This document shows positions 2,755 through 44,503 of a stretch of 64,000 nucleotides of DNA, piece by piece (positions within the stretch are counted from its first letter, which is position 1; each line of letters opens with the position of its first letter). Source of the stretch: Roseivirga sp. (GTDB taxonomy: Bacteria; Bacteroidota; Bacteroidia; Cytophagales; Cyclobacteriaceae). The stretch covers positions 1 to 64,000 of the forward strand of contig JAJCYM010000025.1 in assembly GCA_029262895.1 (NCBI GenBank), written 5' to 3'. The notes under the pieces were generated by a model. The model was not told where the DNA came from, made no database searches, and saw only the letters and a program-made list of their open reading frames with translations. A program made the position numbers and the translations under genes.

Positions 2755-3327
2755 ATGAAAAACTTACTCTCAACTCTAAAACAAAAAACTGCCATATTTT
2801 TATTGGCTATTGCAGGTATCGCATACCTCTCGGCTTTTACAATGTCGACCGCGAAAGACGATGACTCCGAAATCGCTAAAGAAGTCAGACTTGCTGACCC
2901 TTCAGATTGGGCCGATTACAAGGACTGGCACAAAATAACTAAAGAACCTAACACTGGTGACCCTACAGGTTTCCTAGATAAAAAGCATGGTGGAAACGGT
3001 GCCTTTAGGGATGTTTATGTGAATGCAGCTGGAAAAGACGCTTATCTGGCTAAGAAATTCCCCCTTCCCGAAGGAACGGTGATTGTAAAAGAAGCCTTCA
3101 AAAACAAAAAGGCATATGATGCCCAAAAGAAACCTGAACTCACCATTATGGTGAAACTTTCAGCATCCGAAGGCTCAGCCGACTCAGGTAACTGGCAGTG
3201 GGTAATGGGTGCTAGTGGCAAACAGACAGGAATAGGCATGGATACAAAATGGGGCAAATTCTGTGCAAGCTGTCATGCATTTGGAGCCGGTGCAGATTAT
3301 ACGTTTATGAGCACATTTGGCAACTAG
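2755..3327 (+). CDS. cytochrome P460 family protein
   Basis: 190 residues with an N-terminal signal peptide (hydrophobic core about 13-28). The single haem motif CASCH lies at residues 170-174, close to the C-terminus, as in cytochrome P460. The body contains the family's DW...DYKDWHKIT start, a GGNGAFRDVYVN strand and GTVIVKEAF. Characterised P460 enzymes oxidise hydroxylamine in the periplasm and carry a lysine-haem cross-link. Several Lys residues around 98-118 could supply it, but this cannot be decided by reading. Many Bacteroidota members of the family have no known substrate. It forms an apparent operon with the upstream cytochrome c. Confidence 0.85.
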   Translation: MKNLLSTLKQKTAIFLLAIAGIAYLSAFTMSTAKDDDSEIAKEVRLADPSDWADYKDWHKITKEPNTGDPTGFLDKKHGGNGAFRDVYVNAAGKDAYLAKKFPLPEGTVIVKEAFKNKKAYDAQKKPELTIMVKLSASEGSADSGNWQWVMGASGKQTGIGMDTKWGKFCASCHAFGAGADYTFMSTFGN

Positions 3328-3337
3328 TCCATACTTC

Positions 3338-4213
3338 TTGAAAAAATACTCAAAGCCAATCAAGCTAATCTTGGTTGGCTTTTTTGTTTTACCTCCACTC
3401 CTATTCAATGGTTGCAATTCCGACAGGCAAGTCTCAAGCAAACCAAAATACATTTATGCTGTCAATGTCGAGCTCAATGAAATTGTCAAGTATGATCTGA
3501 AAAAAGCAACCAAGACAATTTTGATTGATGATAGACTTGGGTTTCCATGGAGAATTGTGATTGATTCACAGAGTCAACGCATGTTTTGGTCCAATGTGGA
3601 CAAAAACCTGGTACAGTCGGCCAATATTGACGGCACAGATATTCGAAACTTGGGTGTTGTCAGCTATCCCCAAGGCATAGCATTGGACTCCAAACACAAT
3701 ACCCTATTTATTGCCGAATCCGGCACTCCACAGCTGCTCGGCATGCACACTGATGGATCCGCCCTTGATACATTAATGGATACTGGATTATCTGATCCCG
3801 ACAATCTAATTTTCGATATAAATACAAAACGCCTCTACTGGATTGACTTTGGGGAACATGCTATCTTGAGTAGTGACATTGATGGATTAGAGGTCACAGC
3901 GATTATAGCAGCCGAGAATCAAGATCCAGTGGCTATGGATATTGACTTCAACAATAAACACATTTATTGGGCCGATGGAGCGAGCCGAACCATCCAACGT
4001 TCAAACCTTGATGGATCAGGTAGTGTAGAAATTGTTTTCCAGATTCAGAAAGTGACAAGCCTCAAAGTCCAACCGGATGTCAACAGGATCTATTGGGTTG
4101 ATGTGCAAAAACAGAAAATATTCTCAGCGGATGGTAATGGAAAACAAATCAGCCAGTTGGTTCACGACCCTGATCTGGGCTTTCATTGTGATATCTTTTT
4201 AACCTCTCAATAA
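3338..4213 (+). CDS. YWTD/LDL-receptor-type beta-propeller lipoprotein
   Basis: 291 residues from TTG 3338; the frame is open from TTG 3317, which would overlap the P460 stop. The 3338 start gives a clean leader: Lys-Lys n-region, hydrophobic core and lipobox LFNGC at about residues 22-26. The rest is a string of YWTD-type repeats, each with a pattern like RLYWIDFGEHAILSSDIDG or HIYWADGASRTIQRSNLDG, which should close into a six-bladed propeller. No enzymatic residues are evident, so a binding or scaffolding role in the envelope is likely. An intrinsic terminator hairpin lies inside the leader codons (see that entry). Confidence 0.78.
   Translation: MKKYSKPIKLILVGFFVLPPLLFNGCNSDRQVSSKPKYIYAVNVELNEIVKYDLKKATKTILIDDRLGFPWRIVIDSQSQRMFWSNVDKNLVQSANIDGTDIRNLGVVSYPQGIALDSKHNTLFIAESGTPQLLGMHTDGSALDTLMDTGLSDPDNLIFDINTKRLYWIDFGEHAILSSDIDGLEVTAIIAAENQDPVAMDIDFNNKHIYWADGASRTIQRSNLDGSGSVEIVFQIQKVTSLKVQPDVNRIYWVDVQKQKIFSADGNGKQISQLVHDPDLGFHCDIFLTSQ
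3354..3390 (+). terminator. intrinsic terminator overlapping a signal-peptide coding region
   Basis: Left arm 3354-3364 (AGCCAATCAAG), loop 3365-3369 and right arm 3370-3380 (CTTGGTTGGCT) form an 11-bp stem with one G-U pair. It is followed by TTTTTGTTTT. It lies 27 bases after the P460 stop and reads as a normal terminator for the cytochrome pair. However, it also falls within codons 6-18 of the next lipoprotein gene. Confidence 0.75.
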
Positions 4214-34703: not shown

Positions 34704-36593
34704 ATGAGAAAATTAAGCATAATTCTAACCGCCCTTCTTGTTTGTGGTTTAGGCTCAAACGTCTTTGGCCAGGGAAAAGCCAGCAGGCAAGACAATGAGC
34801 GCTGGCAACAACGTGTTAATTACACTATGGAGATTGACATGGATGTCAATACTAATAAATATCAGGGCAAACAAAAGCTTGAATACACCAACAATTCTCC
34901 TGACGTATTAGACAGGGTCTATTATCACCTTTACTTCAATGCTTTCCAGCCAGGTTCTATGATGGATGTGCGTTCCAGAACAATTACTGATCCCGATGGA
35001 CGAGTCAAGGATAGAATATCCAAATTAAACGAGGATGAAATAGGCTACCAAAAAATCCAATCTCTCAAACAAAATGGACGAGATGTAAAATTCTCTACCG
35101 AGGGAACCATTCTAGAAGTAATGCTCAATATACCAATCAAATCAGGTGAAACTACCACTTTTGACATGGTATGGGAGGCACAGGTGCCTGTGCAGATCAG
35201 AAGAACCGGAAGAGATAATGCTGAAGGAATTAGATATTCCATGGCCCAATGGTTCCCAAAACTCAGCGAGTATGATTATCAAGGCTGGCATGCCAATCCG
35301 TACATCGGAAGAGAATTTTATGGGGTTTGGGGAGACTTTGATGTCAAAATCTCGATTGATAAAGACTATGTCTTAGGTGGCACAGGCTATTTGCAAAATC
35401 CGCAAGAAATCGGCCATGGTTACGAAAGGCCTGGACAACAGTTGAATCAAAAAGTTCAGAATGGAAAACTAACATGGCACTTCAAAGCACCTAATGTGCA
35501 TGACTTTATGTGGGCAGCGGACCCGGATTATGTACATGAAACAAGAACCATGGCAAATGGTACTGTCTTGCATTTCTTTCATCAGGATGGACAAAATGAT
35601 GAAAACTGGAAAATGTTACCAGACCTTACCGTAAGAGCCTTCGAATATGCCAATGCTAATTTCGGTCAGTATCCCTATGATCAGTTTACTGTGATTCAGG
35701 GAGGTGACGGAGGTATGGAATACCCCATGTCGACTTTGATTAACGGATCAAGGGGTAATCCATTAGGTGTAACCATTCATGAATTTATGCATGACTGGTA
35801 CCATGGTGTCCTCGGAAGCAATGAAAGCTTACACCCTTGGATGGATGAAGGTTTTACTTCTTACGCTTCAGGGAGAATCGGAGCCCACCTAAGAGGAACT
35901 ATTCCTGACCAAACCGATTTATCAAAACTGGGTTCACCTTTCAGTCAGGGAAGTTACTTAAGGTCAGCTCAAAGTGGTTTCGAAGAAGCACTAAGCACGC
36001 ACTCCGATCATTACGATCGGAACGGAATTTACGGTGCTGCTGCATATGGTAAAGGAGCCGTGTGGATGTCCCAGATGGGCTACGTAATGGGCGAAGAGAA
36101 CCGTGATAAAGCTTTATTACAATACTTCGAAGACTGGAAATTCAAACATCCAAATCCTAATGACCTGATCAGATCATTCGAAAAAGTATCTAATCTGGAG
36201 CTTGATTGGTACAATGAGTACTTTGTGTTTACCACTAAACAAATTGACTACGGAGTAAAGAATGTCACGAAAGAAGGCGATAAAACTAAGGTCTCACTTG
36301 AGAAAGTTAAGCAGATGCCTATGCCAGTGGACATGGTGGTGACATATAAAGATGGAACCAAGGAAGTCCATTATATGGCCTTAAGAATTATGCGTGGTGA
36401 AAAACCTGCAGAAACAACAGATAAGAGAATTGTGCACCCTGATTGGCCTTGGACTAACCCAACCTATGAATTGACTATAGATAGACCTATAGAAGACATC
36501 GTCTCTATTGAAATTGACCCTTCTGGAAGAATGGCAGATGTCAATAGAGAAAACAACAAATGGGAAGCTCCTGAGGTGAAAATTAAGAAATAG
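34704..36593 (+). CDS. M1-family metallopeptidase (aminopeptidase N-like)
   Basis: 629 residues with a signal peptide (about 1-22). The exopeptidase motif appears as GGMEYPMS at 336-343. The zinc site HEFMH at 359-363 is followed 19 residues later by Glu382 (WMDEGFTSY), the full HExxH-x18-E pattern. M1 enzymes remove N-terminal residues from peptides; this one should act in the periplasm or outside the cell. The next ORF begins 5 bases after its stop with no separate promoter visible. Confidence 0.93.
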   Translation: MRKLSIILTALLVCGLGSNVFGQGKASRQDNERWQQRVNYTMEIDMDVNTNKYQGKQKLEYTNNSPDVLDRVYYHLYFNAFQPGSMMDVRSRTITDPDGRVKDRISKLNEDEIGYQKIQSLKQNGRDVKFSTEGTILEVMLNIPIKSGETTTFDMVWEAQVPVQIRRTGRDNAEGIRYSMAQWFPKLSEYDYQGWHANPYIGREFYGVWGDFDVKISIDKDYVLGGTGYLQNPQEIGHGYERPGQQLNQKVQNGKLTWHFKAPNVHDFMWAADPDYVHETRTMANGTVLHFFHQDGQNDENWKMLPDLTVRAFEYANANFGQYPYDQFTVIQGGDGGMEYPMSTLINGSRGNPLGVTIHEFMHDWYHGVLGSNESLHPWMDEGFTSYASGRIGAHLRGTIPDQTDLSKLGSPFSQGSYLRSAQSGFEEALSTHSDHYDRNGIYGAAAYGKGAVWMSQMGYVMGEENRDKALLQYFEDWKFKHPNPNDLIRSFEKVSNLELDWYNEYFVFTTKQIDYGVKNVTKEGDKTKVSLEKVKQMPMPVDMVVTYKDGTKEVHYMALRIMRGEKPAETTDKRIVHPDWPWTNPTYELTIDRPIEDIVSIEIDPSGRMADVNRENNKWEAPEVKIKK

Positions 36594-36597
36594 CAGC

Positions 36598-37512
36598 TTG
36601 TCTTTTCCACAAACATTCATAAAAAAGAGCTCGATTACCGGGCTCTTTTTCTTTTTGCTCTTTCCTGTTCTATGCTTCTCGCAAAACAGTGAATTCATCC
36701 TTACCAGCAGTAATGGAGATAGTCGACATCCTTATTGGTCTCCTAATGGTGAACAGATTGTTTTTGAATCCAACCGGGATGGTGATTGGGAGCTCTATGT
36801 GATCAATTCTGATGGCACAAATGAACAACAGCTAACCGATAACAGCTTTGACGACAGAAACCCAAGTTGGCATCCCACCCGAAGTCAGATCCTATTCGAA
36901 TCAAATCGGTCCGGAAAGTTTGAATTGTTCACCATAAACGTGAATTCCAAAAAAGTAAAAAAAATATCACTCCACAATTTTGAATTTGAACCCACTACTG
37001 CTCGGTTTTCTCCTAATGGTCGATTCATCATTTTTTCAGCTCAGATGAAAAAAGACGAACCCAATTTAAACCTGTTTCTGATCTCTAATAAGGGTGGCAG
37101 GGTAAAACAACTCACCTATGATAAGACCCGATCATTTTATGCGTCCTGGGCTCCTGATAGCAGGCAAGTTGTTTTCTTTTCTCGGAGAGATACAAACGGA
37201 GAAAATGACGAGCTGTATAGGATGTCCATTTTCAATCCAAATGCAGCCGTAAGATTAACCTACTTTGAGATGAATGACTTCTGCCCCAATTGGTCTCCAA
37301 ATGGCAAACGTATAGTTTTTTCCAGGTCAGTAAAAGATGCCCGTCCGGAGTTGCAAATGATCAATTCAGATGGTAGTGGATTAACGCAGCTCACCTTCAC
37401 TTTGAATGAGGGAGAAACACAGGCAGCTTGGTCTCCTGATAATAAGAGGATAGCCTATGCAGGGTACCGAAACGGGAGCTATCAGATCTGCATTTTGAAG
37501 GTTGACCAATGA
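36598..37512 (+). CDS. TolB-like PD40 beta-propeller protein
   Basis: 304 residues from TTG 36598. The leader has KK at 9-10 and a core GLFFFLLFPVLCFSQ (about 15-29). Six PD40/WD40-like repeats follow, each with the core HPYWSPNGEQIVFESNRDGD or its variants (NPSWHPTRSQILFESNRSG, CPNWSPNGKRIVFSR). This is the TolB/DPP-type propeller, a binding scaffold in the periplasm. No TonB- or Pal-interacting partner is nearby. A terminator hairpin lies in the leader codons. The only later TTG (36655) would leave too short a leader. Confidence 0.8.
   Translation: MSFPQTFIKKSSITGLFFFLLFPVLCFSQNSEFILTSSNGDSRHPYWSPNGEQIVFESNRDGDWELYVINSDGTNEQQLTDNSFDDRNPSWHPTRSQILFESNRSGKFELFTINVNSKKVKKISLHNFEFEPTTARFSPNGRFIIFSAQMKKDEPNLNLFLISNKGGRVKQLTYDKTRSFYASWAPDSRQVVFFSRRDTNGENDELYRMSIFNPNAAVRLTYFEMNDFCPNWSPNGKRIVFSRSVKDARPELQMINSDGSGLTQLTFTLNEGETQAAWSPDNKRIAYAGYRNGSYQICILKVDQ
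36622..36657 (+). terminator. intrinsic terminator overlapping a signal-peptide coding region
   Basis: Left arm AAAAAGAGC (36622-36630), an 11-base loop and right arm GCTCTTTTT (36642-36650) form a 9-bp stem, followed by CTTTTTG. It lies 28 bases after the M1 peptidase stop and would terminate that transcript. The same bases encode Lys-Lys-Ser through Leu-Phe-Phe-Phe in the leader of the downstream PD40 protein. Confidence 0.75.
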
Positions 37513-37678: not shown

Positions 37679-38152
37679 ATGGCAAATTACAAACTCAATA
37701 TCAACAATGAGCCCTATGAGGTCGAAGCTGAGCCTCAAACTCCCCTGCTTTGGGTAATCAGAGATGAAGTAGGGCTTACGGGCACAAAGTTTGGCTGCGG
37801 CATTGCGCAATGCGGGGCTTGCACCGTCCACCTCAATGGGACAGCCGTACGATCATGCAGTATCCCAGTATCCGCGGCTTCCGGACAGCAACTTACCACG
37901 ATTGAAGGCTTATCGGATGACAATAGCCATCCGGTTCAACAAGCATGGTTAGATGTACAAGCACCCCAATGTGGTTATTGCCAATCAGGTCAGATAATGT
38001 CGGCCGCAGCTTTATTGGAGAAAAATCCCAAGCCAACGGATGCTGATATAGACCAGGCCATGGCCGGCAATATTTGCCGTTGTGGCACTTACCATCGGAT
38101 CAGAAAAGCAATTCACACCGCCTCAAATAACATCAGCAATGGAAGCAAGTAA
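37679..38152 (+). CDS. [2Fe-2S] subunit of a xanthine-oxidase-family enzyme (isoquinoline 1-oxidoreductase alpha-like)
   Basis: 157 residues. The N-terminal plant-type ferredoxin cluster uses C40, C45, C48 and C60 ([14 protein letters not shown]). The C-terminal second cluster uses C98, C101, C133 and C135 ([19 protein letters not shown]). It passes electrons from the molybdenum subunit to an outside acceptor. It overlaps the large subunit gene by 14 bases. There is no FAD subunit nearby, as in the two-subunit IorAB type, where the electron acceptor is usually a cytochrome or quinone. Confidence 0.93.
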
Positions 38153-43911: not shown

Positions 43912-43937
43912 TTGTGAAGTTGAGTGAGTGAGTTGTG

Positions 43938-43965
43938 AAACCGTCCCGAGTATTCGGGACGGTTT
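43938..43965 (+). terminator. strong intrinsic hairpin before marR
   Basis: AAACCGTCCCGA (43938-43949), loop GTAT and TCGGGACGGTTT (43954-43965) form a perfect 12-bp stem, followed by CTATTTT. It ends 19 bases before the marR ATG, so either the marR promoter overlaps it or the hairpin acts on a leader transcript. The T-run is interrupted. Confidence 0.6.
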
Positions 43966-43984
43966 CTATTTTAAATAGATTGAT

Positions 43985-44503
43985 ATGGAATTTGATAAAT
44001 CAGTGTTACAACACTATCTTTCATTAGGTTTTAGTAAAAACACGCCTATGCATGTCAAAGAATTAGTTGAAAAAGGGAAGTTCCAAAACGAGCACCACCG
44101 CCTGCGTGTAAACCTACTCTATAGCGCTAACTGGTTTGCGAATGGAATGGCTGACTTCCTAAAACCCTTTGGAGTTACCCAACAGCAGTTCAATGCGCTA
44201 AGAATATTACGAGGTCAATTTCCAGATCCAATCAGTACCAAAGAATTAAGAGATCGCATGATCATCAATAATTCCGATACCTCCCGCTTGGTTGATCGAC
44301 TTTGTGACAAGGGTCTGGTTTGGAAAAGGCCCTGCCCTCATGACGGACGCTTGATCCAGGCGTTCATTCATGAAAACGGGCAAAAATTACTTACCGAAAT
44401 CGATAAGGAAATTGCCAACTTGGATGGAATTATGAAAAACTTGACGCAAAATGAAGCTAAAACGCTGAATGATTTGTTGATCAAAATGAGAAACGAATCT
44501 TAA
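43985..44503 (+). CDS. MarR-family transcriptional regulator
   Basis: 172 residues. A helical dimerisation start (about 35-55) is followed by a winged helix-turn-helix with QFNALRILRGQFPDPISTKELRDRM, NNSDTSRLVDRLCDKGLV as the recognition helix region, and the wing DGRLIQAFI. MarR proteins repress neighbouring efflux or stress genes and are released by small ligands or oxidation. The adjoining MFS gene is its likely target. One Cys lies in the recognition region and one before the wing (PCPHDGR), so a redox switch is possible. Confidence 0.9.
   Translation: MEFDKSVLQHYLSLGFSKNTPMHVKELVEKGKFQNEHHRLRVNLLYSANWFANGMADFLKPFGVTQQQFNALRILRGQFPDPISTKELRDRMIINNSDTSRLVDRLCDKGLVWKRPCPHDGRLIQAFIHENGQKLLTEIDKEIANLDGIMKNLTQNEAKTLNDLLIKMRNES

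Follow-up and report, generated by a model that had tools for sequence, protein, structure and literature searches.

A terminator-like hairpin behind an M1 peptidase gene of Roseivirga that probably doubles as signal-peptide code of a PD40 gene

The hairpin that lies behind an M1-family peptidase gene in a Roseivirga genome of 5.79 Mb is situated inside the reading frame of the next gene, where it encodes residues 9-18 of the signal peptide of a PD40 beta-propeller protein. The comparisons described below suggest that the M1 terminator probably doubles as code for this signal peptide, and that the PD40 protein would be made by read-through. The locus is part of a stretch of 64,000 nucleotides (positions 1 to 64,000 of contig JAJCYM010000025.1, forward strand), which is called the window here and to which coordinates refer.

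In this natural case, one stretch of DNA has apparently been selected for two duties, terminating transcription and encoding protein. Sixteen relatives, in which the terminator of the same gene has no PD40 coding duty, provide a set for comparison. The locus also leads to a testable idea, namely that terminators, by composition alone, might supply signal peptides to the genes behind them and gate these genes as well. If this were general, gene and terminator finders that treat the two kinds of element as exclusive would miss such starts.

Architecture of the locus

The M1-family peptidase gene (34704..36593, + strand; Pfam PF01433, Peptidase_M1, E 4.3e-13), whose 3' end would be served by the terminator, has a match in all 19 genus genomes, that of the window (G000) included, with 71-80% identity in the other 18. 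It is followed by the PD40 beta-propeller gene with its signal peptide (ORF 36598..37512, + strand; Pfam PD40, E 1.4e-44). The PD40 frame opens within the last M1 codons, and the TTG at 36598, 4 nt behind the M1 stop (36593), is the first standard start there. A [2Fe-2S] subunit gene (37679..38152, + strand; Pfam Fer2_2) lies further downstream.

The signal-peptide coding region (MSFPQTFIKKSSITGLFFFLLFPVLCFSQ, 36598..36684, + strand) was delimited by translation and alignment, with the cleavage placed by eye near S28/Q29. Its predicted translation has the positive n-region, the hydrophobic core and the small residue before the cleavage site of a Sec signal peptide, according to visual inspection of the conceptual translation and a simple hydropathy rule.

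The hairpin (36622..36650, + strand) has a stem of 12 bp, AAAAAGAGCUCG / CGGGCUCUUUUU, and a 5-nt loop, AUUAC, followed by CUUUUU; its dG is -15.6 kcal/mol. A stable, G+C-containing hairpin with a U-tract directly behind it is the structure of an intrinsic terminator. The U-tract CTTTTT (36651..36656, + strand) supplies some of the codons for the hydrophobic core of this peptide, and the PD40 orthologues of two relatives, G014 and G007, carry CTTTTTTT at this position. The first-pass annotation of this DNA had described a hairpin with 28 nt between the M1 stop and the start of the stem (36622), which reads K-K-S-S-I-T-G-L-F-F(-F) in the PD40 frame, and both statements are confirmed by the sequence and its translation.

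Between 36000 and 37000, no Rfam leader or attenuator family matched above its gathering score; the three matches at E<=1 had scores of 22.7, 19.1 and 18.5 against gathering scores of 99, 55 and 50. The -7 element of Bacteroidota promoters is TAnnTTTG. This motif is absent from 36301-36700 of the window and, in G014 and G007, from the interval between 300 nt before and 60 nt behind the M1 stop, which argues weakly against a promoter close by.

Elsewhere in the window, a very stable 13-bp hairpin, GAAACCGTCCCGAGTATTCGGGACGGTTTC, is found at 43937-43966, 18 nt before an ORF at 43985; its T tail is weak.

Comparison of the hairpin with chance

In 16 kb searched on both strands, 25 terminator-like sites were listed, this hairpin second, and shuffles gave a mean of 15.8 such sites of any strength (sd 3.7). 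The hairpin is no by-product of the PD40 protein sequence. When the first 37 PD40 codons were recoded synonymously according to the codon usage of the genome, 0/300 and 0/1000 recodings matched the hairpin energy; the corresponding figures for the observed hairpins of G014 and G007 are 0/300 and 1/300. In a sample of 303 signal-peptide-like genes from the genome of the window, recoding produced 0.00 hairpins of -12 or lower per set (20 sets) versus two observed.

The annotation had drawn attention to a similar arrangement elsewhere in the 64 kb, and it is present. An ORF (3317-4213, + strand) with a further possible start at TTG 3338 encodes an LDL-receptor class B propeller with a lipoprotein-like signal (3338..4213), and a terminator-like hairpin lies in the signal-peptide codons (3352..3382, + strand), 24 nt behind a cytochrome P460 gene; 0/300 recodings reached its energy. 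No orthologue of this protein was found in the other 18 genus genomes at E<=1e-30, and the signal region of the one family-level homologue (G172, 39%) holds no terminator-like hairpin.

Conservation within the genus

At E<=1e-50, a PD40 orthologue is present in 3 of the 19 genus genomes, namely G000, G014 and G007, and the arrangement is known here from these three genomes only. The protein of the window is 58% and 57% identical to those of G014 and G007, respectively. All 19 genomes have a U-tailed hairpin that begins 16-60 nt after the M1 stop, its place behind this gene being conserved throughout, and in each of the three genomes with PD40 it falls within the signal peptide, at corresponding codons. 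The hairpin of the window is of the same kind and in the same place as those of G014 and G007, with 58-60% identity in the region.

G014 and G007 are 71% identical over 1.7 kb comprising the end of the M1 gene and the PD40 gene. Over these 1.7 kb, hairpin and U-tract together make up their longest identical run (33 nt); the second-longest, 30 nt, is in ordinary PD40 coding sequence, so that run length alone is not exceptional. Of the fourfold sites, 6/6 are identical in codons 10-21 versus 37/103 elsewhere in PD40 (about p 0.003, hypergeometric, by hand). At the protein level, 3/9 residues are identical in positions 1-9, 12/12 in 10-21 and 4/13 in 22-34 (229/304 overall). The simplest reading of this pattern would be selection on DNA or RNA, as well as on protein, at the hairpin codons.

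Across the 19 genomes, the stem sequences of the M1 terminators vary widely while place and T-tail are kept, as if the stems turned over by compensating changes. Terminators with PD40 behind them are not significantly weaker (-14.9, -17.3 and -17.7) than those of the other 16 genomes (median -20.7; one-sided Mann-Whitney p 0.08), and the weakest two belong to G015 and G010, both without PD40. Stem arms resembling AGAGC occur in the M1 terminators of G016 and G011 as well. These arms were dropped as proof of common descent of the M1 terminators, because 5 of 89 sampled terminators, that of the window included, share them.

History and distribution of the arrangement

In the M1 tree, G000, G015, G014 and G007 form one clade (99/99), in which G000 adjoins G015 (93/91); the three genomes with PD40 are alone together in just 8% of the bootstrap trees. 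The three PD40 genes form one clade in their own tree (100/99). In G015 the M1 gene is followed by a different terminator and then by the counterpart of the [2Fe-2S] gene as the next + strand gene, a succession that is also found in G003, G008, G010 and G011, all of them without PD40; of the 16 genomes that lack PD40, the remaining 11 show a different + strand neighbour, or none, directly behind M1. It is likely, from the trees and the gene order, that the M1 gene and its terminator came first, and that PD40 was gained in the ancestor of the four genomes and then lost in G015. Either the arriving PD40 gene adopted the M1 terminator as code, or its signal peptide later became the terminator. 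As G015 has no PD40 gene behind M1, the arrangement is dispensable.

Outside the genus, nine PD40 orthologues were subjected to recoding, and eight have no comparable hairpin. The ninth, from G034 of another genus, carries a weaker hairpin of its own in the signal peptide (7 bp, -9, 0/300 recodings), with ACTTTTTTG behind it, at about 1516-1545 of locus L012, reverse complement. This gene follows a cytochrome-c-like gene and not M1. With G034 as the single genome searched in its genus, the hairpin is possibly a second independent instance. A Winogradskyella homologue (38%) has no significant hairpin in its signal region. A scan of genome contigs with the single protein gave no match, and an alignment-based scan gave 27 loci, comprising the two known Roseivirga loci, the Winogradskyella locus and 24 others. 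In a search of the order, 1 of 390 reached E<=1e-66, and this was the window itself.

A proposed mechanism and its alternatives

By combining these observations, it is possible to propose how the locus may work. The hairpin would serve the M1 peptidase gene as its intrinsic terminator. Within one clade of Roseivirga, the PD40 gene lies directly behind this putative terminator and would use the same DNA as signal-peptide code, the lysines coming from the A-rich 5' side and the start of the hydrophobic core from the 3' arm and the U-tract. As the hairpin is inside the PD40 frame, it stands ahead of the gene body, as an attenuator does, and every PD40 mRNA must cross it, whichever promoter is used. 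To this extent, the suggestion of the first-pass annotation that such an overlap is a means of control can be retained. Most RNA polymerases probably stop at the hairpin, which would give the M1 mRNA its 3' end. PD40 would then be made from the minority of transcripts that read through, at a low level set by the leakiness of the terminator. Read-through is possibly modulated by a ribosome that re-initiates at the TTG just behind the M1 stop. Transcripts terminated with a ribosome on this TTG would be non-stop mRNAs and would presumably be cleared by ribosome rescue.

The proposal depends on PD40 starting before the hairpin, as the annotation had it. An in-frame TTG does exist behind the hairpin, at 36655, and would make the overlap an annotation artefact if it were the true start. 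However, it would leave MLFPVLCFSQ, which contains no usable signal peptide, and no later start preserves one. G007 has TTA at this position; both G014 and G007 have an ATG before the hairpin, 33 nt behind the M1 stop (G007 has an earlier in-frame TTG besides), and the identity of their residues 10-21 also speaks for translation of this part. An artefact of this kind is hardly credible. Another candidate start, the ATA at 36619, which would give MKK, was rejected, since a standard start is available in TTG 36598 and the relatives have their ATGs about equally far upstream. It is very unlikely, too, that the hairpin is a structure of the PD40 mRNA with another role, in translation rate or stability, and no terminator: although it falls no further than 20 codons into the ORF, a U-tailed hairpin also lies behind M1 in the 16 genomes that have no PD40 there, and the forward U-tract is preserved in the three that do.

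The hairpin might, beyond its duty to M1, be kept as a regulated switch for PD40, with read-through that is coupled to translation or depends on conditions. Its retention at the DNA level, while the surrounding signal peptide diverged, is consistent with this, as are the nearness of the TTG to the M1 stop (4 nt), which would permit re-initiation in the genome of the window, and the hairpin with T-run in the G034 orthologue, which stands behind a different gene. The distance from the M1 stop to the PD40 start nevertheless varies, from 4 nt here to 33 nt in the relatives, and in E. coli, at a similar distance from the start, translation lowered termination by only about 10% (PMC4824070). The G034 hairpin, moreover, is weak and comes from one genome, and the other eight extra-genus orthologues and the Winogradskyella homologue have none of this kind. 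We consider regulated attenuation a rather doubtful addition to the proposal that the M1 terminator serves as PD40 signal-peptide code.

Terminators as a source of signal peptides

The annotation had gone further and suggested a route by which exported genes arise or are controlled; as a general route, this was not supported. For a strict scan, 863 kb were taken from G000 and 400 kb from each of G003, G006 and G016. The G006 stretch, with 7,500 N and a coding fraction of 0.45, does not enter the counts, its M1 locus being kept; none of its 22 behind-gene terminators falls in the 5' portion of an ORF. With its runs of N and unusually low ORF content, this stretch (G006:C1:1-400000) looks as if it had many assembly frameshifts. 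Three G003 behind-gene terminators that are antisense within a called gene were also left out. There remained 31 strict behind-gene terminators in G000 (three of them in the window), 29 in G003 and 29 in G016. Six of these 89 lie no further than 120 nt into a called ORF; four were rejected and two kept. The kept cases are 2 of the 31 gene-end terminators of G000, both in the window, versus 0/58 in the two relatives. The closeness of the two is no evidence, since the window was chosen because of both.

The cases rejected by eye were two coding stretches, presumably MobA-like and glycosyltransferase-like, a transmembrane stretch in which the tail is weak, and an ORF of G016 that probably starts only after the hairpin. 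A further candidate (C45), which is not behind a gene, was also set aside. With the criteria relaxed to 6 bp and -8, and with antisense hits excluded, the uninspected counts of behind-gene terminators falling in the 5' part of an ORF were 4/45 in G000, 4/36 in G003 and 2/35 in G016. In the stretches counted, signal-peptide genes showed no significant excess over others, either in G000 (2/303 vs 1/414, p 0.58) or for genuine cases in G000, G003 and G016 together (2/543 vs 0/825, p 0.16).

It is not unusual in itself for an ORF to run across a terminator: among 267 terminator frames, 41 are open and have a start no more than 90 nt upstream, and 15 of these have a hydrophobic stretch. The compositional argument, that a terminator in the right frame resembles a signal peptide, holds. 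With a rule that requires K or R in the first half and a hydrophobic 7-mer in the second, 42/138 open frames of the 89 strict terminators are signal-peptide-like versus 169/2460 in dinucleotide shuffles, where the frames of one terminator are not independent. An earlier version with mononucleotide shuffles gave 40/134 vs 223/3287. Reversed terminators gave 1/162, and non-terminator DNA behind genes, in 42-nt pieces that differ in length from the terminators, 28/631. Counted by terminator, 32/89 have at least one such frame versus 159/1780 shuffles. Terminators might be ready-made proto-signal-peptides, in which A-tract, stem and U-tract read in frame as lysines followed by a core rich in Phe and Leu; a gene body landing in frame would be exported at once, its expression held low by the same terminator, and M1-PD40 would be a fixed, conserved example. 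We put this forward as a speculation that is rather unlikely to prove correct.

Comparison with known systems

In a literature search by titles and the beginnings of abstracts, with subscription papers mostly outside its scope, no natural terminator that encodes a signal peptide was found. Thymine-rich non-coding DNA reportedly yields membrane-type segments when translated, in a yeast study of de novo membrane proteins (PMC7005711); in bacterial terminators, by comparison, the order of A and then T adds a positive n-region.

In E. coli, the terminator of the frd operon lies in the leader of the downstream ampC gene and throttles it as an attenuator. Here, too, the terminator of the upstream gene sits ahead of the body of the downstream gene. 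The ampC gene, however, has its own promoter inside frdD and its terminator is in an untranslated leader, whereas the M1-PD40 terminator is in coding sequence and encodes a signal peptide, and no promoter was recognised. In pyrBI, a reading frame crosses the terminator and translation can affect termination, as may be the case for PD40; the pyrBI leader peptide is disposable, whereas the PD40 frame is that of the exported protein itself. Leader-peptide attenuation of pyrBI is named in PMC4824070.

In E. coli and Borrelia, many 3' ends are reported to lie ahead of or inside ORFs (PMC7815308, PMC10319736). In Vibrio, transcription of vtrB comes about by read-through of an intrinsic terminator, that of the operon upstream (PMC10971746), which resembles what is proposed for PD40. 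The vtrB gene also has its own promoter and is a regulator in a feedback loop, whereas in PD40 the terminator falls within the frame of an exported protein. Nearly the same geometry is that of Li et al. (PMC4824070; also summarised in PMC7858274), who dealt with terminators placed up to 100 bp into coding regions: a terminator 30 bp behind the AUG, compared with 24 nt behind the TTG here, kept most of its efficiency despite the small loss through translation cited above, and the authors attributed the reduced expression of the reporter upstream to non-stop mRNAs. Their system is a plasmid construct in E. coli, whereas M1-PD40 is natural and conserved.
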